Positions 2,934 through 54,854 of a DNA stretch of 64,000 nt are shown here, one piece after another (position 1 is the first letter of the stretch; every line of letters starts with the position of its first letter). Under the pieces are notes generated by a model. It was not told the origin of the DNA. It did not search any database and was given only the letters and a program-made list of their open reading frames with translations. Origin of the DNA: Ilex aquifolium (lineage: Eukaryota > Streptophyta > Magnoliopsida > Aquifoliales > Aquifoliaceae); the NCBI GenBank assembly GCA_951799425.1, contig OX637391.1, forward strand, positions 13,803,051 to 13,867,050, written 5' to 3'. The translations under genes were made by a program, and so were the position numbers.

Positions 2934-5484
2934 CTAAGTTTCTAGATGGGGAGTAATTGAAGGATCTCGCAGCTCAGCAGATGAGCCCTCAGCAACAGAA
3001 GCAAGGGAAACAGGAACAGCAGGATCTGCAGCTAGGAGCTCAGGAATCACCGTCGGAGGCTCAGAAAGTACGATAAGAGCTCCAGAGGTCCCAGGGGCAG
3101 GTATGTCTTGACTCAAGGCTGCAGCTGAAGGAACCGAGGCACCCTCCTCATTGTCAGAGCTAGACTCTTCCATTTCTTCTTCGGTGGGGATAGAGAAATT
3201 GAAGTCAAGGTCTGGAAAAGCTTTGATAGCCTTGCGCCTAAAGGCAAGCCAACCAGTAGCCCACAAGGTGGTGGCCTCATCTCTCAGCTCAGCGATCTCT
3301 TTGTCCCTCTGTTGGACCAAACCTTTCTGCTCATCGAGCTCCTCACAGAGTTTGTCGTTAGCCTCACTGAGAGCAAGATAATCTTGATTGGCCTGGATGA
3401 GCTCTTTCTTGGCATCAAAGGCCTCCTGGTTAGCCTTGGACCACGCCTCGACCTTAAGCTGCAGGTCTTCCTTAACCAACTTCAGCTCATCTCGAGCTTT
3501 CTTTTTCCCCTCCTCAGCTCTGACCTTGACTGTCAGTGTGTGTTTGAGGTCGGAGGCTTGCTTCACCGTCTGCTCGTTGAGGGTCTCCATCTGCTCTTTG
3601 AGGCTCTCCACCCGAGCTCTGAGATCTTCGTTCTCAAGAGACAATTCAGAAACCTTGGTCTTATACTTCTTCAAGACCTGAAAAGAGCTCTCTTGGGACC
3701 GAACCCGATGCAGTAGACCATTCACATGAAGGACAGCCTGAAAATGCGAAAGAACGCATGAGTCCACAAAACAAAAATAAGTGAAGAAGGAGAAGTGGTA
3801 GCGCTTACAACAACTGCTCCCTGAAGAGCTGAAGAAATAGACTCCTCAAGAGGCATAGAAGCAGCCTTCAGAACATCAGACTCAGAGAAAATAGAAGAGA
3901 GAGCCCCTGCAGCAAGATCCATGTTGTCAAAAAAGGAATCCTCATCTCCTTCAGATTTTCTCTCGGTCTTCCCAGAAGCAGTGTATGAGAACTTTCCGGG
4001 TTGGAGGTCAGGGATCACTCCCAAAGCTTCCTTATCCTCAGAGGAGGAAGGGGAAGCCTGATCTCCCTTTTGAGCAGGCCCCGACCCAGGATGGGCCACT
4101 GGAGGAGGAGAGATGACTGCATGTTGAGGAGTGCCGGATGAGGAGGGCGGTGCCTTGATGGGAACCAATTCTGTAGTAGCAGAAGGGGGAGAAGGCACTT
4201 CCAATCTGGGGATTTTAGCTTGAGTGTTTGGACTACTCCCAGAGCCGACCCGAGCCTTGCGCTTCCCAGACCTGCCACCCTCCATCAGCTCTGCAATTTT
4301 GGCCTGAAGCTCTTCTGGAGTAGCCTTCATGGTAGAAGGACCTGGGAGGTCTGGAAAAAGTAGGGAAATGTAAAAAAAAAAAAAAGAGAAGGAAAGATGA
4401 TGAAGAGAGGAAAGCAAGTGACGATGAAATTACCTTCGTCAGCCCCTAAAACAGATAATGGAATCGCTAAAGTCACCACAGGAAGGCTCATACCTAGCTG
4501 CACCAAATTTCTTGACTCAATCAGGTCAGCGTACTTCTCCGGCTTGATCTTCGCCAACTTCTCTAGCACCTTCTTATCTTCAGGGCTGAGCTCAAAACGT
4601 TCACCTGAAAAGAAGAAAGTGTGCAAGTAAGAAAAAGGCAAGAGGCCTATAAATTCCAGACCAGAGCTCATTCGACTCAAGAAAAGACTCACGCAAGTTG
4701 TCTGGTTCAACCCAAGCCGTAGGGATACCGAGAGTGTCTGTCTTATCAGCAGGATTATACTCCCAATTGGTGCCCCCGACAAAAAAGAAATGCTCCTTCC
4801 AGTGCTTATGAGAGAATGAAATGTTAGAAATAAGCTGCCTAACGTTGGCACGCTTAGAGGCATACAAGAAGCCTTCAGAGGTCGGCTTAACGTTAAAGAA
4901 CTCTAGAAATAGAGAAACGCTAGGAACCCCAAGTTTATGCTTCCTGAAGATGACTAGAAAACCAACCATGACACCATAGAAGTTGGGGGAAATCTGGGAA
5001 GGACACACATGAAAATGTTGCAGAACAGCCTTGATGAAGGGGTGTAGAGGAAAGCGAAGACCGTTATCAAAGGCGGCAAGAAAGAAGCAGACCCTATTGC
5101 GTACTTGTTCTACATAGTAGACGGATTTATATGGGCACCAGGGCTCGACCCCAGGAGGAAAACCATACCGAACCTTATAAACTTTCATTAGCTCAGGGGC
5201 TTCTCTACTGTAGCCCACAGACTCGGAATGCCTGAAGGCAGACCCCAAATACGAAATCTTTTCTTCAACCCCGACTCCACTCACCTTAACTTTGCCTTTA
5301 TCAGGTCTGGGGGGCATAGGAGAAGAGGAGGAGGGGGGTTCCTCGGTCCCGACCTCGGCCTCTCCAGCCCCCACACCGGGAAAGTTGTCAATTTCATCGC
5401 CAATATCCCCCAAATCGGTGTCTTCAGATCGACCCCCTAGTAGCGAAACAGAGGAGCGAGTGGCTCCAGAAGAAGCCGACATAG
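2934..5484 (-). CDS. Antisense accessory module 2: PF04195-like domain, Ser/Pro/Lys-rich linker, long coiled coil
   Basis: Four open blocks lie on the minus strand: about 4693-5484, 4434-4604, 3809-4350 and 2934-3737. The start is placed at MSASSGATRSSVSLLG because the 45362-56057 element has nearly the same peptide at the equivalent place. Frame upstream of it is open but not conserved. Block 1 has LRFPLHPFIKAVLQHF, CPSQISPNFYGVMVGF and LGVPSVSLFLEFFNV, typical of PF04195. Block 2 contains GERFELSPEDKKVLEKL. Block 3 is Ser/Pro-rich with a GKRKAR basic patch. Block 4 is a coiled coil of over 130 residues followed by GWLAFRR and an acidic tail with PDLDFNFSIPTEEE. The gaps between blocks begin GT and end AG on the minus strand. 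Extra antisense ORFs are known in plant Ty3/gypsy elements; their function is unknown. Confidence 0.65.
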
Positions 5485-6133
5485 TGGGAAGAGAAAAATG
5501 AAGACTAAAAGAGCGGTAGAGGGAAGGGGGACTGATCAAGCACTCTCCAATGACCCTTGGGTCAGCGCAGTAACTCCCGACGGCAAGAATGTGGACTATA
5601 GAGCTCCAATCTACGAAATGAGGAAGTGGGGCTAGGCAATGGTCACGATTCCAAAAGTAAAAGAACCGAAAGGCCCAAAAATGTAGCAACCACCTCGAAT
5701 CCGAGGGATCCAGAGCAGAGGAGGAGGTGAAAGGGGCGAAGAACGTACCTAACTCAGGAACAGCGGCAAACAGGAACTTGGAGCAAAATCGGGGGAAGGA
5801 GACGATGCGAGTCTTCAAGACGAAGGTTGGGAATTCGTTGTCAAGCAAGAAATCAGGAAAGTTCGGGTAAGATCGTCTGAAATCGCAAGGGGAATAGAGA
5901 CGAAGAGTGGAGAAGAAGATGAATAGTGCGCAGAAATGGTTCAGGTAGCCGTTTTGGGGCATTTAAAGCTTAGGGAACGTGGGCTGAGACATGCGCGGGA
6001 ATCGAGGAGAGTCATGATTTCTACTAACCGTAAAAAATCTTCAAGTCACGTGCTAGCCACGTGCATATTTAACTCTGACTGGAATACAGGTCAGCCCCTG
6101 CCTAAGATCCTAAGGCAAGGGCTGGGGGGCAAC

Positions 6134-6830
6134 TGATGATACTTAAAATAAACCCCAGACACGAGCTCAGGAAAAGAGCTCAGCTCTGGAGGACAGGGAA
6201 AATAAACCGAGCTCACCCAGCCACGATCTGAGCTCGACCAGTCAACACTTGTACTCCCAGCTGAAGACATAAGGCGATAAATGTTAAGAGGACAGCAAGT
6301 CGACAGCAGATATATTCATAATGGGAATTCAGCTAATCCAAGGCGCGTAACACATTACCAACAAGGATCCTCTCCTACAATCAAGGAGAGGATCCCATGA
6401 TAAAAGGCAAAAACCAAGCCATTTGGAGCCAGCTATAGGAAGTCTAGGTAACTCCGAGATTATAGATGAAGATAGGGAGCAATCCCTTCAATGTAGGATA
6501 TAATTCCGAATTAGAGGTAAGCATGAGGCTATAAAAAGGGAGGGACAACCTCCATTAAGGGAGATACCCCGAGTATTCTACTGTAACACGTTCGATTCAT
6601 CAATAAAGAGAAAGGAGCAAGAGCCTCCATTAGAGAGTGGACTAGCCGAGCTCGTTAGCCGGTGAACCACTATACTTCTACTGTCTCACACGCACTACAC
6701 ATCGGTTAATTAGAGCATTCGTCCATCGATACACGAGCCTTGTAGCTCAGATGCCACATCAAACCCCACACAGATCGTTCATACCACATAATCCAATCTC
6801 ATAGCTCATTCGCGCAGGTTTACACCATCA
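6134..6830 (+). repeat. 3' LTR of the 1-6830 element
   Basis: It is 697 bp, starts TGATGATAC directly after the polypurine tract and ends ACACCATCA. A TATA-like TATAAAAAGGGAGG sits near 6531. The start closely matches the LTR starts at 45362 and 55486. The terminal stretch, with CGAGCCTTGTAGCTCAGAT, also matches. Confidence 0.85.
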
Positions 6831-11127: not shown

Positions 11128-12713
11128 GCTATTGCAACTGACTCAATCTTTAAATAAAAAAAAATTATGAGTAGGTACCTTTTAAATTACTTAATTGTGA
11201 GAAAATATCTTGACTAAAATCTTTTGTAAATAAGTATCTTTGACTTGAAATGTATTGTAGTTAGGTACTCATTGACAGATTTTCAAATATTTTCTTCACT
11301 ATAATACCATTTTTGCTTATTTGAAGACCTGTTAGTTTTTTTTTTTAACAACAAAAGGCCTGTTAGTTTAGCAGTCCTATTTTTTATGGGATTTAATTTA
11401 TTATATTAATGGTTTCATATTTTAAAGAATTGAACATATTTTAAATTCAAAATTATATCACATGGAATATATCTTAACGGCCTGGCCAAAATTTTGAATT
11501 TTTTTTTATATTATTTTTTAATGTTAAATGGCTCTGATTGTTTTCAAATCTAACAACAACGTCACTTTGCAATGATACATAGTGATGTAACACTGCCATT
11601 TTTTAAAAATAATATATATGGATGTCATATTTGTGATGTCACATTTTGTGGTGCATACTATTTAGATTGTAAGTAGTTCTTACCTACTTAATATTGAAGA
11701 CTGAAAACGCTCAGTAATTAGGTTTTTTAATAAAATTTTATTTGACAAATTTGTCCCAATAATTTCTAAGCCCTAACACATATCTCCTTCATCCCCTCTG
11801 CCTCTTCTCCACAATCTCACACTTCTTCTTAGTTGACTCTGCCATCTCCTTCCAAACTACAGGTATGTTCTTCTTGTCTTCTTCCTCAATTCTTCCTCTT
11901 TTCCTCTTGATGCAACAACACACAAGCAAATTTTTTTTTTTTTTCAACCTAAAACTTCTCAGCTTTTTAATCTCTCTAAAAAGTAATATCACTTTGTATT
12001 TAACGAAAAATTCCACAAAGAAAAACAATATATTTGTATATTCAAAAGATGAATATCAAATTTTTCTACAAATCTTCAGCAGCATAAGAACTACTATCAA
12101 ATCGAGTCGGAGACACTTTTCACAAAGATTATTGATGTTCTCATGATACACTATGAGCATCTTCCCAGCTCAACGATCATATATACATAATTACCTCAAA
12201 AATTTTGCAGCAGAATCATCATCTGCCAGGATGTTTGGACTTTGTTTCGCGGTGGGTAATATATGAAACCTCAGAGAAAACCAAAGATAGACACACACAA
12301 GCAAATTAACTCATGCAACAACACACACAATCATACTTAAATACACACAGAATTAAATACACAAAATTAAACACACACACAGAGAATTAAATACACAAAA
12401 TTTAATATATTTTTAAATTAAAGAATGGAAGAGTAAAACTGAAAATTAATTTATTTTCACACGTCAGCTCTGTGTAGTTATCAAACAGTTTGGTTTAATT
12501 TAGTACTTAAATTTCGGTGAATACCAAACAGTTCACAAATTTAGCATTCAGCTTTCAGACTTCAGCTTTCAATTTTAACAAACACAACCTAAGTACTGCT
12601 TCACAAAAAGAAAAACCCTAAAATAAAATCAATAAAAATTAACTCAATAACATCTAAAACTGAATGAAAAAATAATTTAGCAGTTTTAAAAACTTTGACT
12701 TTATTCCAACATC
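11128..12713. other. AT-rich insertion in copy A; no gene seen
   Basis: Copy A sequence continues at 11128-11150 and again at about 12610-12713 (aligning with 22455-22566), so roughly 11158-12605 is extra. Its right end (12427-12597), read on the minus strand, matches the left end of the 56129-57175 element (TGTTTGTTAAAATTGAAAGC against TGTTTGATAAAAATGAAATC, then a stretch with AAATTTAAGTACT), so part is a relic of that MITE family. A CT-rich stretch with AACTACAGGTATGTTC near 11850 resembles an exon end with a splice donor, but no reading frame supports a gene. Confidence 0.5.
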
Positions 12714-13622
12714 TGATGATGCACAAATTGGTCTTCGTGCAAGATCAACAGTCGAATATATGTATGGATGCAATTAATGAGTAGTAAATAAGCAATCAAT
12801 GACAAAACAGTAAATATAGAGTCAACACAGAGATTTATAGTGGTTCGGTCCGGGTGACCTACTCCACTCTCGGGAACGACAACGGTGGCCTGTGGTGTTT
12901 TATTGATGAATAGGAGTCACCGGGAGAGTATGCTCCGATGGTGTTACAATGTTTCGGGAGAGAGAAGCTAGAGGTGTGTGGAGGTTTTCAGGGTGTGTAG
13001 GGATTACAACTTATAGAGGTCTCAAGCTCTCAAAAAGGTGATGCCCCCTATGTAGAGAGGGCTTACTTTATATAGGTGTAATGAGGCGGTGACTACAATT
13101 TAGTAAGTACAATTTAGGTAGGACTCCTCCACTTTGGCAAGTATACTCATGGTAGGATTTGATCTCCGGTGCGTATCCCGATATTTTCTCCCTCATGTCC
13201 CTATTCTGTCGGATGAGGACTCTGAGCTAGGTTGGACTTGATCCTGAGCTTGGACTTGTCTTGAGTTGGTGTGACTTGGACTTGAATTTGGATTGAAGTA
13301 TCAAGGTGAAGAGGAGCAAAGAGGGGAGGAGAGGACCAAGGAGGGAGGCCATGGGCGGCGCCCACTTGGAGACCAACATGGGCGGCGCCCCCCTTGGGTA
13401 CCCTTGGGCGACGCCCACTTGGGTCCCTTGGGCGGCGCCCACCCCCTTGGGATCCTTGAGATGCCTCTTGGTTCCTTTGGTGCCTTGGAGCTTTGGGTGT
13501 TGACCTCTTTAGTTCCTTTTGGATTTTCTCTCGATGGGTTGACCCAGTTCTGATTGGGCTCTTCTTTGGTCTTTCTCGGTTTATTTTTATTGGGCTTGAC
13601 CCAGTTAATTTCGGGCTCATCA
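12714..13622 (-). repeat. 3' LTR of the 12714-17816 element
   Basis: It is 909 bp, starts TGATGATGCACAAATTGG and ends TTTCGGGCTCATCA. Its right third contains several GGGCGGCGCCCACTTGG-like palindromic units (13353-13445). Open frames in this LTR on both strands are side effects of the GC-rich repeat, not genes. Confidence 0.9.
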
Positions 13623-16922: not shown

Positions 16923-16923
16923 C

Positions 16924-17816
16924 TGATGATGCACAAATTGGTCTTTGTGCAAGATCAACAGTCGAATATATGTATGGATGCAATTAATGAGTAGTAAATA
17001 AGCAATCAATGACAAAACAGTAAATATAGAGTCAACACAGAGATTTATAGTGGTTCGGTCCGGGTGACCTACTCCACTCTCGGGAACGACAACGGTGGCC
17101 TGTGGTGTTTTATTGATGAATAGGAGTCACCGGAGAGTATGCTCCGATGGTGTTACAATGTTTCGGGAGAGAGAAGCTAGAGGTGTGTGGAGGTTTTTAG
17201 GGTGTGTAGGGATTACAACTTGTAGAGGTCTCAAGCTCTCAAAAAGGTGATGCCCCATATGTAGAGAGGGCTTACTTTATATAGGTGTAATGAGGCGGTC
17301 ACTACAATTTAGGTAGGACTCCTCCACTTTGGCAAGTATACTCATGGTAGGATTTGATCTCCGGTGCGTATCCCGATATTTTCTCCCTCATGTCCCTATT
17401 CTGTCGGAGGAGGACTCTGAGCTAGGTTGGACTTGATCCTGAGCTTGGACTTGTCTTGAGTTGGTGTGACTTGGACTTGAATTTGGATTGAAGTATCAAG
17501 GTGAAGAGGAGCAAAGAGGGGAGGAGAGGACCAAGGAGGGAGGCCATGGGCGGCGCCCACTTGGAGACCAACATGGGCGGCGCCCCCCTTGGGTACCCTT
17601 GGGCGACGCCCACTTGGGTCCCTTGGGCGGCGCCCACCCCTTTGGGATCCTTGAGATGCCTCTTGGTTCCCTTGGTGCCTTGGAGCTTTGGGTGTTGACC
17701 TCTTTAGTTCCTTTTGGATTTTCTCTCGATGGGTTGACCCAGTTCTGATTGGGCTCTTCTTTGGGCTTTCTCGTTTGTTTTTATTGGGCTTGACCCAGTT
17801 AATTTCGGGCTCATCA
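16924..17816 (-). repeat. 5' LTR of the 12714-17816 element
   Basis: It is 893 bp and starts and ends like its partner at 12714-13622, in the same orientation. It lacks a 14-bp stretch present in the partner near 13100. Confidence 0.9.
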
Positions 17817-21119: not shown

Positions 21120-21690
21120 GATTCCCAACACTTTGAAATCCTCTCTACTCTATTCCATTCTTCGGTAGTTGGAATCACTCAACTATAAATGAATAAAAGC
21201 ACGATGATTAAAAAGAGCACTCTCAAACATAATATAAGTTGAGTTTCATCTAGTAGGAACATATCCTCGCAAACCTTTTATACCATCTATAGAAACTTGT
21301 GCAACACAATCAAAGAACATGTTTTTCCTTCCCAATAAACCTTTAACATATTTAATGCTCTCTCGAATATTTTTCACCAAGTCATCAGTTTCTTTAAGTC
21401 CATCTTGAACAGTTAAGTTAAGAATATGTGCACAACAACGAATGTAAAATAAATCACCATTCCTTAAGAGAGCATTTTTCAAATTAAGTTGACTCTTTAA
21501 GATTTCAATAAAGCAATCATTATTGGAAACATTATCTAAGGTCAAAAAAAACAATTTCCTATCAATTCCCCACTCGATCAACAATATGTAAATTTTCTCA
21601 GATAAAGTGAGCTATGAGAGTAAGATATCCATCAATCCCTATAGAGCTCCACAAATCAAGATGTCAAGCAAATTCTACCAGCAAAGGAAT
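21120..21690 (-). pseudogene. hAT-superfamily transposase fragment
   Basis: A minus-strand frame (21246-21584) gives part of the catalytic domain of a plant hAT (Tam3/RICESLEEPER-type) transposase. It shows FLTLDNVSNND with the catalytic Asp, then IRCCAHILNLTVQDGLK, one of the most conserved hAT motifs. Similarity runs on in both directions: upstream to LDLWSSIGIDGYLTLIAHF, after a stop and a frame change near 21600, and downstream past YVPTR, where the expected Trp is a stop (TGA), to NSTYIMFESALFNHRAF and, in another frame, EEWNRVERISKCWE. The BED zinc finger, the other catalytic acids and the C-terminal dimerisation domain are absent. It is a dead fragment, and no inverted ends were found. 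Confidence 0.85.
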
Positions 21691-23672: not shown

Positions 23673-23675
23673 ATC

Positions 23676-23692
23676 TGGCGCCGTCTATTGGA
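23676..23692 (+). promoter_or_regulatory. Primer binding site
   Basis: TGGCGCCGTCTATTGGAA lies three bases after the 5' LTR. It is a variant of the site shared by the other large elements in the window. Confidence 0.75.
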
Positions 23693-23729
23693 AATTCCTT
23701 AGACCAAATTTCCCCGCAGCGACATTATC

Positions 23730-25240: not shown

Positions 25241-25289
25241 CACAGTCAAGAGACCTACTTATAATTCACTTCGAGCTGACCTTCAAAGG

Positions 25290-25744: not shown

Positions 25745-25939
25745 CAGTCATAGTTCGGTCGGCTGGGTATTGATGAGCCTATTATAAATCCAGCTGATCG
25801 ATCGATGGAGGCCTTGGTTAAGGTCTTTCTCAATCCTAGCGACGAGGAAAGATTTTTTCTAGTGGGAACATCGCTGGGGGGCACCGAAAGGTCTGTAATG
25901 GCAAGTTTCCTCCGTCAAAATGCAGACATGTTTTCCTGA

Positions 25940-27250: not shown

Positions 27251-27259
27251 GCCTCTACC

Positions 27260-28070: not shown

Positions 28071-28279
28071 GAATCCAAGCATAAGGGACTTGGTTGCCGA
28101 GAAGATACTTCCGATAGGCGCCCAAGATATTAAGCAAAGTTGGATGGACCCTGTAATCAAATATCTAATAGACGGGACACTCCCCGAGTACGTCAAAGAA
28201 GCCAGGAAGATCAAACTGAAAGCTCCCAGATTTTGGGTATCCCCTGACCAAAAGTTATACAAGAGATCCTTCTCGGGAC

Positions 28280-29379: not shown

Positions 29380-29417
29380 GTGGCTTTCAAGAACCAAAAT
29401 TGAAGAAATCAAGTAAT

Positions 29418-32735: not shown

Positions 32736-32922
32736 GCTTCCCTATTAATATTGGTTGGAACGTGAGCGAGAATTGAGGAGACACAGGCCATCAATTGAAA
32801 TTCGAAATTAGGCGCCAGACGTGCAAGTAACCGCCCCTAATAACCAGGAGTGTTAAGGAAGCCTCCACTCTTCGTGCACCACCTGTCCCATAACGCGAGA
32901 AAAATGGATGTTGGGGGGTAGT

Positions 32923-39640: not shown

Positions 39641-42262
39641 GGTTGATATTATTTTTTGTGGTATTCCAAATATAGTAAAATCACTTATTGAAATTTCTGA
39701 TATTGTGTAACTTATAATAAAACAATAACAGTCAAGTGCGAAACAGCTACACAGAATATTGAAACCGTTACAGAAGAACTAACGAAACACTTACAATATT
39801 CTTAACGAAACAGTTACATGTAACTGCTTATCAAACCAATATAAATACTAACCCGGTTGCAGAACAGGAACTGTTATTGAACTTTATGTAGATCAAGGCT
39901 AGTGTTTGACACTATGTCCTTAAGACAGATTTCGCCCCCACACACAGTGCTTATGGAATATAAAGCATCTACGTCCCAAGATACAAGGATCATCACACGA
40001 ATAGAAGTAGCACTCCAATCTACCCATCCAGCGAACCAGAAATAGTGTTGTGTACTCTCCAAATGCAGATTGCCTTAACGCCAAAATGCAATGCACTAAT
40101 GTCTGGCTTAACTCTAAAAAATGGAATGATGAATGAATGAATGCAGAATGGTAATGAGAGCCTGTGTATTTATAGACAGTCTGGTGACTGTTCCGGACAG
40201 TCACCATACTAAAAGACACAACCCATAAGACAAATACAATAGTCAGAAGACACTACTTGTGTAACTATTCTTTATGAACAGACATAACTCAAAATTTCGT
40301 ACTGAAGGAAATTACCCTCCGAACCAGTACAAATTCAAATAACAGGTACCGAAATTTAATTTCGGTTCAAAAATTCTCCCCCAGTTAATTAAAAAAAAAT
40401 TCTCTAAAAAGATAGGGCTTGATCACACCCACACCCGTGCCCGGTCGGACCGGGTCGTGGTGTGATGAGGCAGGCGTGCAGCATGCGCGCATGTGTGGTA
40501 GAACTGAAAGCATGTAGATGCTCACTTCGCTCATAAAATTGTGGTACCCCTTGGGGCCCAATCTCATAGAACAAATTTGGCCTATATATGCCCATATAGA
40601 ATTTCTTCCTCAACTAATGTGGGATTGGTGTCAAATCCCACATTGCACAACCTCTATTTTCACATTTCAAGAGGGTCACTTTGGAGCCTATTTTCTCATT
40701 CATTTCTTACTTGATCTGAGCAAGTGAATATACTACATTATTCTCCTCACGGATTAAAATACGAACCCACGAAATTTTACTCGAAACAACGAACAGGTCC
40801 CACTTTAATTTTGGCTCAAAGTTGACCAAAAATTCAGTTTTTACACTTAAAAAACTGTTTTGGTCCAACAATCCCCCGCATGAATGAAAAATTGGCTGTT
40901 AGTATGAAAATGATAATGTGACACACTATAGAGAGTACATCTTTGGAAAGATCATGCATCTAGATAGGTAGCTTTTGGCCTTGAACCTTTCCTAGTGAAA
41001 GCCCATCGGACTTATTGGCTAAATAGTGAACGTGATGTCTTGAACTATTCAGCTGTTTGAAAAATCAAATCGAGTAGATTTCACACAGTCTCTTTCCTAA
41101 TACAATTGATTCTCATGATTGTGTTCATTTTGACCCTAAACAACTCCTGGTTTTCATAAGTGCTTTAGAGAATTCTGCCTTTATAAATTCTCACAGAAGC
41201 GGCCCCTTCACACCCATATAGGTGCCTCTTATTAGAAATATCCTTCAATATCCCAAAGTATAAAAGTCATTAAAAGCATAACTTACCCTAATAAATTATG
41301 CAGGCAGCACTAGGTTATCATAGGAATAGGTAGGAGAGATTATCTCCTTAGTGCTTCTTTTGAATCACGCATAATTCGGTTGTCCCTTTGAACCTAGATC
41401 TTGGGATCTCCAATCAACTAAATTGGGTTGCCATTAAGGTGAATCTTGTGTCATAGGCTTTAGTCTCATTCCCCTTGATGTGCAATTTACTTGTTCTCTC
41501 GTCAAACCTTTAGTAAACGGATCCGCTAGATTATCCTTTAATTTTATATAATCAATAGAAATAATCTCATTCGAGAGTAATTGTCTAACGGTATTATGTC
41601 TACGACGTATATGTCTAGACTTATCATTATACATGTCACTCTGTGCCCTACCAATTGTAGATTGGCTATCGCAATGTATACAAATAATTGGTATAGGTTT
41701 AGGTCATATTAGAATATCCTTTAGAAATTGGTGAAGCCACTCAACTTCCTCTCCTGTTTTATCTAAAGCAATAAATTCAGATTTCATTGTGGATCTAGCA
41801 ATACACGTTTACTTAGAACATTTTTAAGATACAGCTGCACCACCAAGTGTAAAGACATAACCACTTGTGGATTTTGTATCCTTCATATCAGATATCCAGT
41901 TTGCATCATTATACCCTTCACGTATAGCTAGATATCTTATATAGTGCAATCCATAATTCAGAGTATATCTTAAGTATCTAAGAACCCTGATAATTGTCTT
42001 CCAATTGTCTACTTCCGGATTACTCGTATATCTACTCAATTTACTAACTGAGTATGCTATATCCGGTCTAATGCAGTTCATGACATATATTAGACTTCCA
42101 ATAATATGAGAGTATTCCAATTGTGATATGCTTTGGCCAGTATTTTTAGACAAATGAAGATTTATATCAACTGGTGTTCTAGCAATATTGTTTTCATTTT
42201 TGTCGAACTTCTCAAGTATTTTCTCAATATAATGTGATTGAGATAATATAAGTCCACCAGAT
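39640..42262 (-). mobile_element. Ty1/copia relic, minus strand, with two LTR-like segments
   Basis: On the minus strand, 41434-42262 contains Ty1/copia reverse transcriptase/RNase H sequence: [31 protein letters not shown]-like text, [15 protein letters not shown], then SRHIRRRHNTVRQL and DNLADPFTKGL. Next comes a purine tract (complement of ATCCCCCGCATG at 40871) and an LTR-like segment ending CCAACA at 40870. A second purine tract (complement of AATTCTCCCCCAGTT near 40376) and a second LTR-like segment (about 39650-40371, with a minus-strand TATA box near 40170) follow, so two elements may be stacked. The gag, protease, integrase and 5' LTR parts are missing. It is broken. Confidence 0.65.
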
Positions 42263-43530
42263 GCGATTCGAGTTCGCCGACCACCCTTTTGGCCATGCTG
42301 ACGGTGGCGAGACGAAACCCAGTTGAGTTCAAAACCCATAACTAAGTCCTGTAATACTCAGACAATAAAAAAAAAAATCGTGTGCTTATGTATACATGTA
42401 TGAGTTCCCCAAGTGAATAAGTGTTGTTTTTGTCAAATGCTACTGGAGTAAAATGTGGCAACCATGCTGGTTTTTAGGAATAATAAGTTTCTTCCCATTA
42501 AACTACTGTGGTTCTCAAAGAGGGAGGTGGCCAGAGACTTGGCTCATGCAAGGTCGTTTTTCTTTTCTTTTTCTTTTTTTATTTTGGGCCTGCATTTTAC
42601 TCATGCTAGTAGCGGCCGAGAGAGATTGAAAGACCAACCGGCTCATTTCTAAAGCCAAAGGCAGAGAAAATGACATAACTGAGCGAATGACATCATGTAT
42701 TGTGATATTGCCGGGGAGTGCAACCAGAGTGTAAGTTATCATGTGAAGTTGTGTATAGCATGGATTCCTTATGCATAGGCATATTTTTACGAACAAATGA
42801 GGGCAGTAATTGTGCGATGAAACATGTTACTTATCTTTTTATTTGTCGAACACCATATGTGGACATATAATGAGTGACTAGGCAAGTAATTAAAGTGCTC
42901 TCAGACTGGATCGTCTGGCTCCAGTTTGCTGAGGACAATGGACTGGTCGGCATCACGGGGATCCTTCACTATTTTCGGCAAACTCTGAGCGTGAGATCCA
43001 TAAAGCCCGAGCTTTTATATATGCTGAGGTGGGTTAGCACATGCTCAGTGTCGGCGCGGAAGGAAGAGCTTGGCCACTGCTAACGGTGAGACCGAAATCG
43101 TTTCCCACACCTTGTATGCTTGCAATGGAACACTCATAGAGAGGTAAAAGACTTTCCTTCGCCAAAGTACAAACACTAGTCATCTGTTCTAGGAAACAAC
43201 ATACTTTGGGTGTTATGAAGGAAGTCATTTTTATGCCCACCACAAAAGAAACCACTGGTGCAGGAGACTAGGAACACTAGAACTCTATGAATAAAGCTTG
43301 GTGTAAAGATGGTGGGGCCTTTATGCTACTGACTCGTATTGACGTGGATCTGGGATTAACATTCCACCCCATGAATAAACATATACCAGAGACCAAATCT
43401 CATATGGTGAGAAAGTGTGAAACACTGAATGACTGAGTGCTAGAAGACCGAAATACATGAATGGTTCGAAACTTAAGCAGGGCTCACGAATTGGGTAATA
43501 TGAAGATTTAGGGGACACACATGCTTCGTT
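42263..43530. other. 5' interior of the 35985-44052 element; no gene seen
   Basis: On the minus strand this follows the primer site, where gag would lie. The short frames (42515-42796, 43034-43255, 43321-43620 minus) show no gag, zinc-finger or protease motif. Confidence 0.55.
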
Positions 43531-45361: not shown

Positions 45362-45943
45362 TGTTGATACCTAAAATAAGTTCCAGACATGAGCTCAGGA
45401 GAAGAGGTCAGATCGGGAGGTCGGGCTAGACACACAGAGTTCAGAAAACCAGAGCTAAAGCTCTACCCCGGAAAAGATAATAGCAAGAGTAACTAGGGGG
45501 TAGCTGGATAATAGCCAGCACCCCCAACGGAGTGGAAAGCTAGAATCAAGGCGAATAACTCTCAACTAATCAAGATCCTCTCCTGAAATCTAGGAGAATC
45601 ATACGAATGACAGGCAAGGGTCTCGGCGAAGTCTTACAGAATAGGGAACAACCCTATAAAAACTAGGTAACGCCTCCATTGAAAGGGACGACACAAATTG
45701 TACTGAGGAGGACCATCAAAATTCTAAGAACGATCAATAAAGAAAAAGGGAGGAGGAAGAGCCTCCATTGAAGAGTGTACTAGCTGAGCTTCAGGGCCGG
45801 CGAACCACTATACTTTGTCTGTGCGAATCACCCCAATCCCCCAAGTCTTTTATTGCGAACCCCATGAGCCTTGAAGCTCAGATCCATCTTGTCCAAAACA
45901 ATTCACGCACCTTCTGCTCATCCACATAAAAATAGCATCATCA
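45362..45943 (+). repeat. 5' LTR of the 45362-56057 element
   Basis: It is 582 bp, starts TGTTGATACCTAAAATAAG and ends AATAGCATCATCA. A likely promoter/start region includes CCCTATAAAAACTAGG near 45650. A polyadenylation-like AATAAAGAAAAAGGG lies near 45738. Confidence 0.92.
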
Positions 45944-45946
45944 GTT

Positions 45947-45963
45947 TGGCGCCGTCTGTGGGA
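45947..45963 (+). promoter_or_regulatory. Primer binding site
   Basis: TGGCGCCGTCTGTGGGAA lies three bases after the 5' LTR. It is identical over its length to the site of the minus-strand element at 12714-17816. Confidence 0.9.
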
Positions 45964-46005
45964 ACGACAATTCCTGTTACAAATACGCTGATCTTTCAGT
46001 GACTG

Positions 46006-47628
46006 ATGGTCTCAACTCGCAACATGAGTAGAAGTCAAGCAAACTTACCACAAATGCAGAACCAACAAGAAACCACCAACAGTAGACAGCCGCAGGATGT
46101 CCCAGAGGTCAACCCTCCCATGGGGAATCTCTCCACCAATAATGAGTTGGAGGCTCTTCGCCTAGCCAATCAACGCTTGCTACAGTAGAATGAGGAGCTC
46201 TTGAAGCTCCTGCAACGACCGCAGGAGGCACGACCCGCCCAAGAAGGCCAGAATAACCCCTATCGCAGGGAACAACAACACCTCAATCCCCTCCGGGAGG
46301 TCAATGAAGGAAGGGAAAATAGCCAGACCATGGGGCAGGATGCCCATCTGCCCCCTAGGAATGGCCACAATGAAGAAGTGCAAATCCAAAACAATGGAGG
46401 AGAGAGGGATGATTTCTTCCCCTATCAACAGGAAGGGAAAGAGCAGTATTGGGAGCAGCGCTTCAGGGGCATCCAGCAAGAGCTCAACCACATGAAGGAG
46501 GTTGTAAAGAGCAAGGTTCCGGTCACAATGGACGCACTAGTACAGCAGACTGAATCCCCTTTCACCACGGGGATATTGCACTTCTCCCTTCCACCGAAAT
46601 TCAGAATGTCGCAGGTGGAAGCCTTTGATGGAACAAAAGACCCTATGGACCACCTCAATACTTACAAAAATCAAATGGAGCTGCACGGGTACCAGGACCC
46701 AGTCCGTTGCAGAGCCTTCGCTATCACGTTGAAAGGATCGGCCCTGGCCTGGTTTAATAGGTTCCCCCTGGCCTCGATCTCCTCCTTCAAGGAACTTTCA
46801 ATCTCTTTTGTATCTCACTTCATAAGAGCGCGAACCTACAGAAAACCGAGTTATCACCTGTTAAACGTGAAGCAAAGATCTGATGAGAACCTTCGGTCCT
46901 ATGTCCAGAGGTTCAATGCAGAATCATTGAAAGTAGATGTCCCAGACGAGAAATTCACCATCACTGCTTTCATCGCAGGACTTGGAGTACAATCAAAGGA
47001 TCTGATGTTCTCTATATCAAAGAACCCCCAGGCAAGCATGGCCGAGGTGTTGGCCAAAGCAGAGAAGTATATAAACGGCAAGGAAGCGCTCCTCTCTAAG
47101 GTAGGGAGCTCGTCATCATCACGAAAGGAGAAAAGGAGAGAGGAGAAGAAAATGGACCGAAGTCCCAGGAAAGAAAGAGAGCAGGATAGGTCTCCAAGGA
47201 GAGACAGGGAACGGTCCCCAAAAAGAAGGGGTAGTGTTAGGGATCGACTAGGCCCTCCATAGCCAGAATTGCAACTGAGGTATGCACCTCGGCAGCTCAC
47301 TCCCCTGACCGCCTCGGTGTCTCAAATCCTATGCGAGGTGCAGAACGAGAAGTTCCTAAGATGGCCTCCCCGAATGAAGGCGGACCCAGTAACGAGAGAC
47401 CCGACCAAGTACTGTGATTACCACCGAGATCATGGCCATCATACCGATGATTGTATCCAGCTAAGAAAGGAAATAGAATTTCTGATTCAACGAGGGCAGT
47501 TGCGTCACTTTGTGGCCCGAGATAATCAAAACCGAGCTCTTCCACCCCCACCACCTCAGCAACAGGCACCAGCACCACACCAACAGCCACTAGGGGAAAT
47601 TAGAGTCATCTCTGGGGGATTCGCATGA
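46006..47628 (+). pseudogene. gag region of the 45362-56057 element
   Basis: It starts MVSTRNMSRSQANLPQ about 45 bases after the primer site. A Gln/Asn-rich N-terminal part with GPQE-like charged text precedes the retrotransposon capsid domain (FRMSQVEAFDGTKDPMDHLN, GSALAWFNRFPLASISSF, FNAESLKVDVPDEKF). A basic Arg/Lys/Ser tail (SPRRDRERSPKRR) follows, then a nucleocapsid zinc motif of the form CDYHRDHGHHTDDC. It provides the structural protein of the virus-like particle. It is nearly whole, with about two breaks. Confidence 0.85.
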
Positions 47629-47699
47629 GGAGGAGAATCCAGCTCAGCCAGGAAAGCTCACCTACGAAGAGTCAGAGCCGAGGAAGCTCACGAGGTATA

Positions 47700-48170
47700 T
47701 ACTGTGTCCAAGGTCCCGCGCCTAGACACAGCTATCACCTTCTCAGATTTAGACTTGGAAGGCTGTCAACTCCCCCATGACGACCCTTTGGTGGTAAGGG
47801 TTGTAGTAGCAAACAGAACTGTTCATCGAGTTCTAATTGACAATGGCAGCTCTGTAGACCTCATCTTTGCGTCAGCATTTGATAAAATGGACATCGGAAG
47901 GGAGAAGCTGGAACCGGTGAGTGCACATCTGCTGGGATTCTCAGGGGAGAGGGTGTTACCCCTAGGATCAATTCAGCTCGTGCTTACTATGGGAGACCCC
48001 CCTGTCAAGTCACCACAACAGTGAGATTTCTGGTGGTTGACACTCTTTCTGCATACAATATGCTGCTCGGAAGGCCTTCCATCAACGCAATAAGAGCTGT
48101 CCCTTCTGCCTATCATCTAGTTATGAAATTTCCCACTGAGAACGGAGTTGGAATAGTCCGAGGAGATTAG
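47700..48170 (+). pseudogene. Protease region of the 45362-56057 element
   Basis: A retropepsin-like domain shows VLIDNGSSVDLIFASAF at the active-site position, LLGFSGERVLPLGSIQLVL and, further on, MLLGRPSINAIRAVPSAYH. The DNGSS form in place of DTG or DSG is common in Tat elements. It would cleave the polyprotein. Confidence 0.8.
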
Positions 48171-48173
48171 CGT

Positions 48174-49346
48174 GTGGCCAGGGAATGCTACATGGCTTCT
48201 GTGAAGCAAAAAGAAGTTAAAAATATCCAGCTGGACGAGCTCGACATAAGGGACGAGCTGGACACCAGACCGACCCCATTGGAAGAGCTGGAGCCTGTTC
48301 AGCTCGATCACGAGCCAGAGCACCTTGTTTACATCGGAACCAAGCTAAGCAAAGAAGTCAATGACCTCCTTATTCAATTCCTGAAGAGAAACATGGAAGT
48401 GTTTGCCTTGAAACAGGAAGACATGGAAGGTATAGACCCCTTGGTTATCACACACAAACTGAACGTGAATCCCGCTAGCAAACCTGTCAAACAAAGGTGA
48501 AGAAGCTTCACCCCAGAACGGCAAAAGATAATCAATGAGGAGGTCAGCAAACTCCTCCATGCCAAAGCCATTAGGGATGTGGATTACCCTCTTTGGTTAG
48601 CAAATGTGGTCCTCGTCAAGAAGACCAATGGAAAATGGCGACTCTGCATTGATTTCACAGACCTCAACCGAGCCTGTCCCAAAGATAGTTTTCCTCTACC
48701 TCGGATTGACCTAATAGTGGACGCCTTCTTAGGCTACAATCAGATCAGGATGGACCTTAACGACCAAGAAAGGACCTCCTTTGTCACTGAACAAGGAACA
48801 TACTATTACCAGGTCATGCCTTTTGGGTTGAAGAATGCAGGGGCCACATACCAACGTCTGGTGAATCGGATGTTCCGAAAGCAGATTGGGACGTCCATGG
48901 AAGTTTACATTGACGACATGCTGGTAAAGTCTCTCAAAGAAAAACTTCACATCCAGCACCTAGCAGAATCATTCGAGGTCCTCAAGGAATACAAGATGAA
49001 ACTCAATCCCGCTAAATGTGCTTTTGGAGTATCAGTAGGAAAATTCATGGGTTTCATAGTCAACAGTAAAGGAATTGAGGCTAACCCAGAAAAGGTAAAA
49101 GCAGTACTGGACATGCAGCCGCCATTAGATACGAGAGAGATCCAACGTCTGACGGGAAGAATAGCTGCCCTGAGTCGTTTTGTGTCCCGATCGAGTGATA
49201 AATGCCAGCCTTTCTTTCGAATCTTGAGGAAAGCGTTTGAATGGGATGCTCAATATGAAGAGGCATTTAAGTCACTAAAGGAGTATCTGAGCTCTCCTCC
49301 ATCCTGGTATGCCCCAGGGAAGGTGAGGTGCTTACTTTATATCTAG
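48174..49346 (+). pseudogene. Reverse transcriptase region of the 45362-56057 element
   Basis: After a linker rich in LDE repeats (IQLDELDIRDELDTRPTPLE) comes the polymerase: WRLCIDFTDLNRACPKDSFP, QVMPFGLKNAGATYQRLVNR, then the catalytic box VYIDDMLVKS and LNPAKCAFGVSVGKFMGFIV. These match Ty3/gypsy reverse transcriptase in order and spacing. It has about two breaks. Confidence 0.9.
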
Positions 49347-50130
49347 CGGTCTCAGATTACTCGACAAGCGCAGCGCTTGTGATAGAGCAGGAAAGAGCTC
49401 AGCAACCCGTATACTACTGTAGCAGAGCTCTTAGGGGGGGCAGAAAAAAGGTACCCGAAGATGGAAAAACTTGTTTTAGCTCTGGTCACAACGGCGAGGA
49501 GGATTAGACCATAATTTCAGGCTCACACTATCGAGGTTCCAACGGATCAACCAATGAAGCAGGTGTTACATAGACCAGAGTCCTCGGGAAGGCTGGTCAA
49601 ATGGGCCATTGAACTCAGCGAGTTTGATATCAGGTACAAGCCAAGAGCAGCCATCAAAGGACAAATATTGACAGATTTCATCACAGAATTTACAACAGCA
49701 GCGCCTACGGAGGCGACCCGGCTAGTGCCTGACCTCCCCATTTGGAGACTTTCAGTGGATGGAGCAGCCAATGCCCATGGGAGTGGTGCAGGCTTAATTC
49801 TGACCTCCCCGGATGGAGTAGATGTCGAATACGCCCTTAGGTTCGGGTTCAAGGCTTCAAACAATGAGACGGAGTACGAAGCTGTCATTGTCGGTCTCAC
49901 TCTTGCACACTCAATGGAGGCAGAACAGCTAGAGGTCTGCAGTGACTCCCAGCTCGTTGTAAAACAGATAGAAGAATCTTATGAGGCCAGGAGTGAGAAA
50001 ATGGCCATTTACCTCAGGAAGGTGCAGGAACTGATCAAGAAGTTTGTGCAAGTTGAGGTCAGACATGTCCCAAGATCTGAAAATTCACGAGGAGACGCCC
50101 TAGCAAGGCTGGCAACGGCTTCGCAAGAAA
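49347..50130 (+). pseudogene. RNase H and archaeal-type RNase H region of the 45362-56057 element
   Basis: The first 200 bases are a worn gypsy RNase H (AVSDYSTSAALVIEQE-like). The second domain is well kept: LSVDGAANAHGSGAGLILTS, then [38 protein letters not shown] and a final HVPRSENSRGDALARLA. The D...E...D...D pattern of an archaeal-type RNase H is present. Possession of two RNase H domains is a known mark of the Tat lineage. Confidence 0.88.
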
Positions 50131-50369
50131 ATTTAGACAGGTTGGTTCCAGTAGAACACTTGGCACAACCATCTGTGTACATTGAGAATGAAGAAGTACT
50201 ACTAGTACAGACCCTAACGAGCTGGATGGACCCTATCATAGGGTTTCTACAAAACGGGACTTTGCCAGAGGATCCCAAAGAAGCCGCAAAGCTAAGAACC
50301 AGATCAGCTAGGTTTTCCATTTTGCAAGGGAACTTGTACAAACGAGGTTTTTCGATGCCTCTTCTAAGA

Positions 50370-51458
50370 TGTGTGGGAGAGGAGGATGCTGATTACATAT
50401 TAAGGAAAATTCATGAGGGAATATGTGGCAACCATATTGGAGCTAGAGCACTGGCAGGGAAGGCTTTGAGGCAAGGATATTACTGGCCTACTATGCTGAG
50501 GGATACCACCAATCTGGTTAGAAGGTGTAAGGTCTGCCAGGTGCATGCCAACATTTCACACTGCCCGCCAGAGCTCCTAACCTCGGTGGTAAGTCTCTGG
50601 CCCTTTCAACAGTGGGGATTGGACATTCTTGGCCCTCTACCCACCAGCACAGGACAATGTAAGTTCGTCATCATTGGAGTGGATTATTTCACTAAATGGG
50701 CGGAGGCAGAGCCACTGGCAACAATCACGGAGCAGAAGGTTCAAAACTTCACTTGGAAGTCAATAATCTGTAGATTTGGAGTACCTAGGGCATTTGTCTA
50801 TGACAACGGAAAGCAATTTGACAATCCTAAGTTCAAAAAGTTTTGCACAGAGCTCGGAATAATGAACTATTTTTCTGTCCCAGCTCATCCGCAATCCAAT
50901 GGGCAAGCTGAGGTGACTATCAGGACAATTAAAGCGGCCTTGAAGACCAAACTCGAGTCACTAAAAGGGAAATGGGTAGAGTATCTTTCAGAGGTCTTAT
51001 GGGTCTACAGGACGACCTCCAGAGTGGCAACTCAGGAAACACAGTTTGCTTTGGCTTTCGGGACTGAAGCAGTGTCACCAATGGAGATAGGACACCCCTC
51101 CCCTAGAACTGAGTTTGCTGAGCCCGGGCATAACGATGAATCCCTTCTATTAAATCTTGATCTCTTAGAAGAGAAAAGATAAAGATCTCTGCAGAACATT
51201 CAGAGATATTAGAGGAAGACCGCAAGGTACTACAACAGGAAGGTCAAGCGGAGGAGCCTCAAGGTAGGAGATTTGGTACTTAGAAAGCTTTCGCCCGCGA
51301 GAAAGGATCCCACTGATGGCAAATTGAGACCCAATTGGGAGGGCCCCTACATCATCTCAAAAATAATTAGGCCTGGAAACTATGAGCTGCAAATAGAAGA
51401 AGGAAAAGTCCTGCCTCATTCTTGGAACGCAGAACACCTTAAGAAATTTTTTCAGTAA
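50370..51458 (+). pseudogene. Integrase region of the 45362-56057 element
   Basis: Zinc-binding HHCC parts (HEGICGNHIGARAL, VRRCKVCQVH) are followed by the DDE core: GLDILGPLPTSTGQCKFVII, FVYDNGKQFDNPKFKKF and AHPQSNGQAEVTIRTIKAAL. The C-terminal part (LKVGDLVLRKLSPA, PNWEGPYIISKI, HSWNAEHLKKFFQ) ends at 51458. It would insert the cDNA into the genome. It has about one break. Confidence 0.88.
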
Positions 51459-51536
51459 GTTTCCCTTGTAATGAGATTATTTTCAATAAAATAACCAAGT
51501 TTTCGATTCATGCCTGCTTGTTTCCATGAAGAAGCT

Positions 51537-51960
51537 AAAAAGAGTCATGTAGCTCACGATGAATTCCTTAATTCAGGAAAAGAGCCCTGTAGCTCACAAT
51601 GAATTCATTAATTCAGGAAAAGAGCCCTGCAGCTCATGATGAGTTCTTTAATTCATAAAAAGAGCCATGTGGCTCACGACCAATTCTTTAATTCAGGAAA
51701 AGAGCCATGTAGCTCACAATGAATTCTTTAATTCATAAAAAGAGCCCTGTAGCTCACGACCAATTCCTTAATTCAGGAAAAGAGCCATGTAGCTCACAAT
51801 GAATTCATTAATTCAGGAAAAGAGCCCTATAGCTCACAATGAATTCCTTAATTCAGGAAAAGAGCCCTGCAGCTCATGATGAGTTCTTTAATTCATAAAA
51901 GAGCCCTGTAGCTCACGACCAATTCCTTAATTCAGGAGAAGAGCCCTGCAGCTCATAAAG
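51537..51960. repeat. Tandem array, 40 bp x 10
   Basis: Units read AGAGCCCTGTAGCTCACAAT followed by GAATTCNTTAATTCAGGAAA, with variants TTCATAA and CGACCAATTC. Pairs of neighbouring variants recur, which suggests an older two- or three-unit higher-order period. The array starts about 80 bases after integrase and ends before the antisense gene. Confidence 0.92.
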
Positions 51961-52182
51961 TCAATGATTTTGCTTTAAGAAGAACTGAAGTACTTCTCGA
52001 AGCAATGGGGGCAAGGAGAACATAAAGCAAAGGAAAGCATAATTATGTTTCAAACCAAAAGTCACATTACATTTCGAAGCGAAAGTTCATAACAGAAATT
52101 ATTTTTCAAAGTTTGTATTTCAGAGTACAGGGTCAAAGTACATTAAACATGAAATTAGAGTCACATGAACATGGAGAGAGCT

Positions 52183-54854
52183 CTAAGTGTCTAAGGAAGG
52201 TATAAGTGAAGGATTCTGCAACTCAGCAGATGAGCCTTCGACAGTAGGCAGAAGAGGAGAACTTCCAGAGGTGCCAGCTACATGGATCTCTGCTCCTATT
52301 GATGACGAATTCTGAGCAAGGGCCTCACTCACAAGATCAGCCGAGAACAATACAGTGGCAAAAACAGCAGAAGTTACAGCTGGGAGCTCAGGAATTGCAA
52401 TAACAGAGCCTGTCCCAGTAGAAAGGGCTTCAGAGGTCTCAGCAGGAGGGATGGACATCTCAACACCTTCTAAGGTAAAGTCTGGAGGAGCCAAGCTGTC
52501 CCCCTCACCATCTGTATCCGTCTCCTCCAGCTCCTCCTCAGTGGGAATAGTAAAGGTGAAGTCAAGGTCTGGATAGGTCTTTGCTGCTCAGCGTTTGAAG
52601 GCAAGCCATCCTGAGGCCCACTGGGTGGTGACGTCATCCCTCAACTCAACAATAACATCATCTTTTTCCTTGACAAGAGTTTTCTGCGCCTCGAGCTCGA
52701 AGCAGAGTGCAGCATTTGCCTCAGTCATAGCGAGATAGTCCTTTTTTATGCTCTTCAAAGAGCTCTGGGCTTCAAAGGCTTCTTGACTGGCCTTAGCCCA
52801 GGCCTCGGATTTAAGTTTTAGCTCTTCCCTGGCCATTCTTAGCTCATCCCTGGCTTTCCTTTCTCTTTCTTCGGCATTATCTTTTGCCGCTTGTAAGCCC
52901 TGAAGGGAAGAAGCCTGGTTCTCCAATTTCTCTTTGAAACCTATCACCTGAGCTCGAAGGTCATCATTGTCCAAGGCGAGTTGGGCAACCTTAACCTCGT
53001 ATGCCTTTAAAGCTTTGACAGAACTCTCCGAGGATTGGATCCTACTCACCAAACCCTTTACGTGGAGAGCCAGCTGGGGACAGGAGAGAAAGCGAGAAAA
53101 GGTAAGCATAAGGTTATGACGTAAAGATAAATGGATGTACGAGAATGTAAGAACTTACGGCAGTTGTTCCCTGAAGAGCTGAGCTGATGGTCTACTCAAG
53201 AGGCATAGAAGAAGCCTTTTGAACGTCAGAATCAGTAAGAACAGAGGAAATGGCCCCAGCAGCGAGCTCCCTGTTCTCAAAAAAGGAGTCCACACTCTCC
53301 TCCACCTTGGGGCGCTTTTCTTCATCACACCCAGGTTTCATCGGAAAGAATTCGATAATCTTCCCAGAAGGACTATAAGAGAAAGTACCAGGTTGAAGGT
53401 TGGGGACCAACCCCAAGGTTTCCTTGACCTCAGACGAGGAAGGAGAAGCCTCGCCTGGCTCATGAGTTCGCCCTGAAGCAGGTTGAACCCCTGAGGGGAG
53501 GCAGGCCTCAACGACTTGTGGGGTGTTCAACGGTTGGACCTGCTTTGTTGAAGTCGAAGTTGGAAAAGAAGAGGGCACCCCCAACTTTTGAATCTTAGCC
53601 CGAGTAACAGGGCTACTTCCAGAGCCGACCACAGCTTTCCGTTTGCTACCTTTCCCACTCTTCGCTAACTGATCGATCTTGGCCTGGAGTTCCTCAGGGG
53701 TGGGCTTCATTATGGAAAAACCTGGAAGAGCTAAACTGGGCGAGTTTAAAAAAAAGAAGAAAAAGAAGAAAGAGATGGAATTAAAGGCAATAAAGTCAAC
53801 CAAGTGGACACTAACTTCCACTCCTTCAGCGCTGACAGCTGAAAGTGGGATGGCTACCGTCACCGCGGGGGGGCTCAGCCCTTGATCCACCAAAACCCAG
53901 GGCTGGATGAGTTCAGAATATCTCTTTGGCTTGCACTTCTCCAACTTTAGCAGCACCTGCTCATCTTCAGCACTAAGCTCAAAGCGCTTACCTGAGGAGT
54001 GATGAAGGCAGAATGAAGTCAGGGGAGGGGGCAAATAAAAAATCTGATCTCAGGCAACTCGGCTGAGAACTTACCCATGTTATCTGGGGCAGACCACGCT
54101 CTAGGAATTGGGAGGGTGTCTGTCCTATCTGTAGGGTCTTACTCCCGTTGAATGTCTCCCACAAAGAAGTAATGCTTTTTCCAGCCCTTGTGGGAGCTCG
54201 GGAGCTCGGATATGATCAACTTGGCTGATGCCCGTTTTGAAATGTATAAAAAGCCCTCAGAAGAGTTGTGTTTAACGTTAAAAAGCTCCATAAGTATGGG
54301 AACAGTGGGCACTCCAAGCTTATGGGTCTTAAAGTAAACAAGGAGACCTACTAGCACACCCCAGAAGTTAGGAGAGAGTTGGGCAGGACAAATGTTAAAG
54401 TGTTGCAAAACGCCCTTAATGAAGGGATGCATTGGAAAGCGAAGGCCGTTCTCAAAGGCGACCACAAAGAAACAGACCTTCTTATGAACTTGGGTGACAT
54501 ATGAGTTAGATGCATCAGGGCTCCAGAGTTGAACTCCATGAGGAAACCCATAGCGGGCCCCGAGAGCCTTCAGGAAAGAGGGAGGTCACGCGCTCTGCAT
54601 AACTGAAGGCAGCTCCTATGCCCGCAGAAGGGATTCCCACCTCACTCACCTTGCCCTTACCTTTACTAGGCTTAGGGGGCACAGGAGCGGATGTTGAGGG
54701 AGGTTCCCCAACATTTACCCCCACATCAATAGAATCTACGGCCGGGAAGTTGTCGATTTCAACACCTACATCTCCTAGGTCAGTATCCTCCTCGGCAGAT
54801 TTGCAGCCTAGGAGGGAAACAGAGGAAGGGGTGGCTCCAGAGGAAACAGACATG
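52183..54854 (-). pseudogene. Antisense accessory gene of the 45362-56057 element
   Basis: Four blocks lie on the minus strand: about 54075-54854, 53816-53991, 53159-53721 and 52183-53073. Block 1 starts MSVSSGATPSSVSLLG and has the PF04195-like text LRFPMHPFIKGVLQHFNICP and NFWGVLVGLLVYFKTHKLGV. Block 2 has GKRFELSAEDEQVLLKLEK. Block 3 is Ser/Pro-rich with GKGSKRKAV. Block 4 is a coiled coil (VKALKAYEVKVAQLALDNDD...) with GWLAFKR and an acidic tail. The gaps have GT...AG borders in the same places as in the 2934-5484 gene, including the consensus-like donor GTAAGTTC. It has about two breaks. Role unknown; the basic patches suggest nuclear entry. Confidence 0.7.

Follow-up and report, generated by a model that had tools for sequence, protein, structure and literature searches.

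What kind of gene lies antisense in three neighbouring retrotransposons, and where does it begin and end? The question is raised by a 64,000-nucleotide stretch of the Ilex aquifolium genome (contig OX637391.1; here the window, G000:C1:13803051-13867050 of an 800-Mb genome to which all genome-wide counts refer). The original prediction had described, in each of three long terminal repeat (LTR) elements, a domain resembling Pfam PF04195 (TRP28) followed by a coiled coil, encoded on the opposite strand in the space that separates integrase from the 3' LTR. The explanation that we favour, and consider probable though well short of certain, is that every element has a TRP28-family gene in antisense orientation, one that contains introns and is independently transcribed.

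The three elements were delimited by their LTRs. Element 1 enters the window with its right part only (1-6830, + strand), its left LTR and gag-pol lying left of the window in locus L009; the LTR pair (L009:3371-4067 and 6134-6830) is 99.28% identical over 697 bp, and by LTR identity this element is young, the youngest of the three. Element 2 spans 22845-33657 with LTRs at 22845-23665 and 32927-33657 that match in two pieces (90.6% and 90.2%), and element 3 spans 45362-56057 with LTRs at 45362-45943 and 55486-56057 (95.4% identical). Reverse transcriptase (RT) and integrase (INT) matches were on the + strand in all three, those of element 1 within L009, as were the Pfam Gag, RT, RNase H and integrase domains of element 3. 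An open reading frame (ORF) on the opposite strand followed integrase and preceded the 3' LTR in 3/3 elements, confirming the predicted arrangement.

Pfam, with a gathering cut-off of 26.2 bits for PF04195, matched the TRP28 domain on the antisense strand at two places in element 1, here called gene A (4601-5962, 39.8 bits) and gene B (1057-1800, 40.5 bits), and in element 3 (54139-54585, 37.8 bits). No Pfam match at E <= 1 was found in element 2 (31860-32741), where the domain predicted from the letters fell below the reach of the Pfam model. In a wider alignment (A1), PF04195 was matched by 15/21 domains at E <= 5, the remaining six presumably being members of a divergent family, D, to which the element 2 domain belongs. 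When family D (alignment A4, 6 domains) was compared with families A-C (A3, 12 domains) by hhalign, the profiles matched with 97.8% probability (E 7e-13, 179 columns), and because of this profile-profile match the label PF04195-like appears to hold for element 2 as well. The conserved domain covers about 180 residues, compared with 69 positions in the Pfam model. The element 2 domain has at least 150 genome matches, itself included; its gene (30209-32456, - strand) comprises a domain exon, an exon 2 match (31956-31525) and a coiled coil (31093-30209, degraded, with a tblastn match to a relative at E 7e-36), the latter two still recognisable and interrupted by stops. In family C (L031, L032, L035), long, repetitive, low-complexity N-terminal regions were in frame with the domain.

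What had been listed as separate blocks reads as a set of exons that together make up a single spliced gene. Gene A of element 1 consists of four exons on the - strand: exon 1 (4693-5482) with the first ATG at 5482 and the PF04195 domain, exon 2 (4434-4604) with RFELSPED and phase 1 on both sides, exon 3 (3809-4350) with a basic SGKRKAR patch, and exon 4 (2934-3737) with the coiled coil, GWLAFRR, PDLDFNFSIPTEEE, an acidic tail and the stop. The three introns of 88, 83 and 71 nt (4692-4605, 4433-4351 and 3808-3738; phases 1, 1 and 0) are all GT-AG, and their removal gives a joined frame of 768 codons with no internal stop. Element 3 holds the same four exons (52184-54853, - strand) in a decayed copy with four in-frame stops (aligned codons) and an intron-2 donor without GT. 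Splice sites were tallied over 33 rows, being all loci with an exon 2 match, which leaves out L025, L031, L032 and L035; because L002 and L029 are the same place, these represent 32 distinct copies. GT donors were present in 33/33, 32/33 and 33/33 rows at introns 1, 2 and 3, and acceptor AG in 33/33 at each, while first exons beyond element 1's own group were just 58-69% identical to that of element 1.

The proteins of gene A and gene B are, as these sequences show, both under purifying selection, in agreement with the selection that had been proposed from motif conservation. Pairwise Nei-Gojobori dN/dS (omega) between groups was 0.10-0.20 in gene A exon 1 and 0.15-0.39 in the short exon 2; exons 3 and 4 gave 0.12-0.33 and gene B exon 2 gave 0.10-0.19, some pairs with saturated dS yielding no value. 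Closer pairs had higher values, at 0.24-0.45 for exons 3 and 4, a single 0.76 for exon 2 and up to 1.05 for L026-L028, as expected if copies decay after insertion. Under the GY2K codon model, with 18, 18, 18 and 15 copies for gene A exons 1-4 and 12 and 12 for gene B exons 1-2, chosen from those available, omega was 0.19, 0.30, 0.37 and 0.27 for gene A and 0.27 and 0.20 for gene B. A fixed omega of 1 fitted worse in all six exons (2dlnL 38-382, values that are indicative because the null fits gave identical likelihood at two fixed kappas), and a second codon model, MG, gave omega of 0.17-0.34. A dN/dS near 1 across many copies, which had been named as grounds for abandoning the prediction, was not seen; the other such ground, a first block without similarity to PF04195, applied no further than to element 2, whose first block does not reach the Pfam model.

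The first ATG was not where this constraint began. The quoted motifs were indeed present, but MSxSSGAT, taken earlier as the start of the protein, was preceded by 81 constrained codons. We aligned the upstream region of 19 copies (18 of the 33 splice-tally rows plus L044), using seven group representatives for pairwise statistics. Codon periodicity in the ATG frame was evident from -264 to 0 (mismatch 0.18, 0.17 and 0.37 at the three positions) and was not found from -400 to -264 (0.34, 0.38 and 0.35). Pairwise omega from -243 to 0 was 0.06-0.24 in 18/21 pairs, the other three being saturated; the codon model over all 19 copies (-243 to -1, 81 codons) gave omega 0.162, with lnL -1320.6 compared with -1379.4 at omega 1, and the leader from -405 to -264 gave 1.04. 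The other two forward and two of the three reverse frames were mostly around or above omega 1 from -243 to 0; the third reverse frame was also low (0.09-0.52), its third positions coinciding with those of the true frame, and it held 3-7 stops in each copy. The upstream frame was open in 17/19 copies, with single stops in L012 and L036. Together these data indicate that the gene A coding region begins about 77 codons upstream of the first ATG, in a putative N-terminal extension at 5483-5713 (- strand).

No in-frame ATG was found in the upstream stretch. An in-frame CTG lay at exactly -231, 77 codons upstream, in 19/19 copies (5713-5711 in element 1), every one of them having a purine at -3 and a G at +4, and the leader after -455 was without ATG in 16/19. 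Genome-wide, the motif had CTG at this position in 508 cases, CTA or CTT in 20 and ATG in 2 (TTN codons uncounted), and the two ATG cases, each a single copy, were taken as chance. CUG initiation is the likeliest cause of the upstream constraint and, on this pattern of conservation, probably the true one. Against it, CTG is replaced by CTA or CTT in the 20 genomic copies, the first six codons after it vary in amino acid, and a conserved splice-donor-like GTACGT (5743-5748, - strand) upstream of the CTG could mark splicing that excises the CTG; in 19/19 copies the longer GGTACGT starts 34-37 nt upstream of the CTG. Four of the 81 constrained codons precede the CTG. The upstream coding stretch might instead be an exon spliced to an AUG exon further upstream, for example on the antisense strand of the 3' LTR. 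Besides the conserved GTACGT, an AG at -213/-212 in the element 1 copy of the window, where strong amino-acid conservation starts by eye, speaks for such an exon, but the two would together define a 55-nt intron, which is short for plants and by eye leaves an in-frame TGA just upstream in the same copy. The frame between GTACGT and CTG is disrupted by indels among copies, and CTG is kept with its context in all 19, so that we regard splicing from an upstream AUG exon as possible and distinctly less probable than CUG initiation. A CUG start upstream of an AUG start is familiar from glyco-Gag of murine leukaemia virus (MLV), which concerns another gene and strand and is an analogy only.

Element 1 holds, in addition, a second antisense gene that had been overlooked when one was listed there. 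Gene B lies downstream of gene A on the same strand (1767-680), with a paralogous PF04195 domain in exon 1 (1161-1767) and a KRRRR patch and short leucine coiled coil in exon 2 (680-1089). In most comparisons its TRP28 domain shares 31-37% identity with the gene A domain, and its intron (1160-1090) occupies the corresponding place, after the same domain end and in phase 1, with a GT donor in 19/19 other copies and GC in the window copy. Among 19 loci picked from gene-B matches (L010-L028), gene A lay upstream on the same strand in 18, L025 retaining an exon 4 remnant only. Of 74 exact gene A intron-1 junctions listed, at least 64 were followed on their own strand by gene B, 2.8-5.3 kb downstream, a lower bound because the gene-B list comprised the best 150 matches. 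No gene B match was found in element 3. A CUG-like extension for gene B was considered and set aside, as upstream codon periodicity was not found in five, little diverged, copies. The N-terminus of gene B (FFPDLDLPLRVPTPDE, 1640-1590, - strand) resembles the tail of gene A (FPDLDFNFSIPTEEE, 3215-3175, - strand), possibly through a short common motif or by chance. When the window (680-5482) was compared with L020, dS was 0.04 in gene B exon 1, 0.89 in its exon 2 and 0.05 to 0.39 across gene A exons, a mosaicism that suggests recombination among subfamilies, perhaps by template switching.

The introns themselves offered a reason for the antisense placement. Intron 1 was found at the same place and in phase 1 in four diverged families, A, B, C and D; in C (L031, L032, L035) and in D (L038, L040-L043 and L037, the last being element 2) a phase-1 GT-AG intron was identified by eye. 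The simplest reading of this pattern is that intron 1 predates the A/B/C/D split and would have been carried through each later round of retrotransposition. The unspliced exon-intron junction of intron 1 in element 1's group occurred at 270 genome sites (150 + 120, allowing up to two mismatches), the spliced junction at 0. Two other spliced junctions likewise had 0 sites each genome-wide, the unspliced counterpart being counted for the first junction only, and retroprocessed, intron-less copies of the gene were not detected by any of the three junction patterns. An old intron passing through retrotransposition fits an antisense position because reverse transcription copies the sense-strand genomic RNA, in which these splice sites go unread, and the junction count of 270 to 0 supports intron survival of this kind. 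Plant LTR elements are generally without introns, with Ogre and EVADE as the exceptions named in the accessible text of PMC12786077. Extending the interpretation to the lineage, a family-wide retention of spliceosomal introns through antisense coding, a co-inherited A+B duplication and a longer gene A protein from the conserved CUG may all apply together, a combination that we put at slightly under an even chance.

We propose that a TATA promoter just inside the 3' LTR would drive gene A, whose transcript would be spliced and then translated from the CUG as well as the AUG to give a long and a short isoform. A TATA-like box, TTTAAAT, lies at 5961-5967 (- strand), 485 nt before the ATG, and T(A/T)TAAA(T/A) was present at -520 to -430 in 14/19 aligned copies (10/14 in a smaller scan). 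The long protein would begin with an aromatic-rich extension, an acidic serine-rich stretch and the TRP28 domain (+6 net charge), continue with the exon 2 hydrophobic stretch and a proline/serine-rich region containing SGKRKAR, and end in the coiled coil and acidic tail. A membrane anchor in the extension is unsupported because its highest 19-residue hydropathy, 1.25, is below the usual threshold of 1.6. Coiled-coil-like segments, called by eye and by a crude heptad score, followed the domain in element 1 (2934-3737) and element 3 (52186-53067), and a degraded one in element 2, as had been predicted. AlphaFold modelled the gene A domain with moderate confidence (pLDDT 73.8, pTM 0.75). The product might then be a nuclear, self-associating coiled-coil accessory protein acting in trans upon DNA or chromatin of the element itself, in transcription, silencing or integration, in a manner comparable to some retroviral antisense accessory genes. 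Our best guess for function, suggested by the basic patches and likely coiled coil and held at about even confidence, is a nuclear accessory regulator. The DNA- or chromatin-related role suggested earlier is therefore still a guess, helped by the nuclear localisation of Grande GENE23 as given in a review and not by fold and structure searches, which were empty.

Several observations weigh against this account. The TATA-like motif is absent in 5/19 copies; the gene B donor is GC in the window copy and intron 2 of element 3 is without GT, which means that some copies are non-functional; splicing, the promoter and initiation at the CUG are all deduced from sequence; and selection was measured across families inside a single genome. 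The heptad score of 6.5 exceeds the shuffle mean of 3.46, yet it was equalled by the top-scoring of 300 shuffles. The exon 2 hydrophobic stretch LGMSLPVVTLAIPLSVLGA (4434-4604, - strand), whose 19-residue mean hydropathy of 1.86 is the maximum of the protein, is left unexplained by a purely nuclear soluble protein. The gene B AlphaFold model was poor (pLDDT 53.4), and the gene A model had no fold match at E <= 0.001 (Foldseek best E 3.0 in PDB and 0.33 in BFVD); no solved structure related by sequence was found, with one chance match at E 1.3.

The same basic patches and coiled coils, and purifying selection like that on pol-encoded proteins, would also suit a pre-integration or particle factor, serving in nuclear import or target-site tethering and not in transcriptional regulation. 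A separate promoter and antisense orientation would, on the other hand, uncouple such a protein from gag-pol, and neither Pfam nor the sequence search of solved structures returned an integrase- or gag-like match; we consider a role of this kind unlikely. That the unit matters mainly as RNA pairing with genomic RNA to tune silencing or packaging, its ORF being incidental, draws on the capacity of antisense LTR-element transcripts to feed double-stranded RNA silencing (accessible parts of PMC7264820 and PMC12786077), but is disfavoured and very improbable given that omega is far under 1 in the extension and in six exons, that four of five other extension frames lie around or above 1, and that the reading frame is exact across introns.

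Other features of the window touch the elements or lie between them. A tandem repeat array of ~40-bp units (51496-51940, strand unassigned) separates pol from gene A in element 3, where RVT_3 (82-199) and RNase_H (81-198) both match one stretch that precedes the INT domains of 49515-51182, an extra RNase H between RH and INT being a mark of the Retand lineage. A 300-bp stretch within the element 2 RT region is duplicated (25920-26564, 85%). Direct repeat blocks at 12713-13402 and 16923-17597, ~4.2 kb apart and 96-100% identical, resemble the LTRs of a short, young non-autonomous element. A minus-strand ORF at 21246-21611, which we take to be a hAT transposase fragment by its motif, and another at 41824-42357, judged by eye to be copia reverse transcriptase/RNase H-like, each had no Pfam match at E <= 0.01.

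An antisense TRP28 gene in such elements is largely known already. For Retand, the available text of Vicient 2025 (PMC11963269) puts the share of recent clusters with antisense TRP28 ORFs at 97%, separately counts 57 antisense ORFs with TRP28 over 63 clusters, and gives a predicted DNA-binding function for TRP28; the figure of 23% of Retand elements with Transposase_28 in PMC6317226, likewise from part of its text, is far lower. The Retand ORFs resemble those described here in their place between pol and the 3' LTR, strand, domain and tandem repeats. The interval between the last position of the INT match and the 3' LTR is ~4.3 kb in element 3 and ~3.8 kb in element 2, inside the published Retand pol-3' LTR range of 2.9-6.6 kb, and ~6.9 kb in element 1, above it. 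The two descriptions differ in that the Retand ORFs were listed with ORF Finder, and the main text of PMC11963269 contains none of the words intron, selection and purifying; nor does its available text describe a second TRP28 gene per element or upstream non-AUG coding. Among the top-ranked papers listed by library searches, none dealt with introns or non-AUG initiation of antisense TRP28 genes, the original Grande, RIRE2 and Retand papers aside. We therefore provisionally regard the spliced structure, gene B and the coding upstream of the first ATG as new; the introns, second gene copy and hidden upstream start may have been overlooked so far. A survey built on uninterrupted ORFs registers this gene in pieces and may not reach its ends. 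With exons, introns, partner gene and likely start known, the right protein can be cloned, tagged and tested, which makes its role directly testable, and survival of introns through retrotransposition provides a simple reason for the antisense placement.

That extra ORFs are known and their job is not, as the original prediction had stated, agrees with the available text of PMC11963269 and PMC7264820. The plant mobile domain (PF10536) of Ogre-type ORFs and MAIL1/MAIN is a comparable extra plant domain on Ty3/gypsy elements (PMC5418596 and PMC6317226, as far as their accessible text goes), but is without profile similarity to TRP28; as a candidate distant relative it was rejected at an hhalign probability of 0.2% over 21 columns (seven sequences of the same genome). 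It had at least 147 matches in the genome, some being two pieces of one gene. HBZ of human T-cell leukaemia virus 1 (HTLV-1) and other retroviral antisense genes likewise encode antisense nuclear accessory proteins, an analogy drawn in the available part of PMC11963269 and used here without any claim of homology. Maize Grande is alike in arrangement: as described in the accessible text of the review PMC7264820, its gene23 also lies antisense between pol and the 3' LTR and encodes a nuclear protein, with its own promoter and antisense transcripts.

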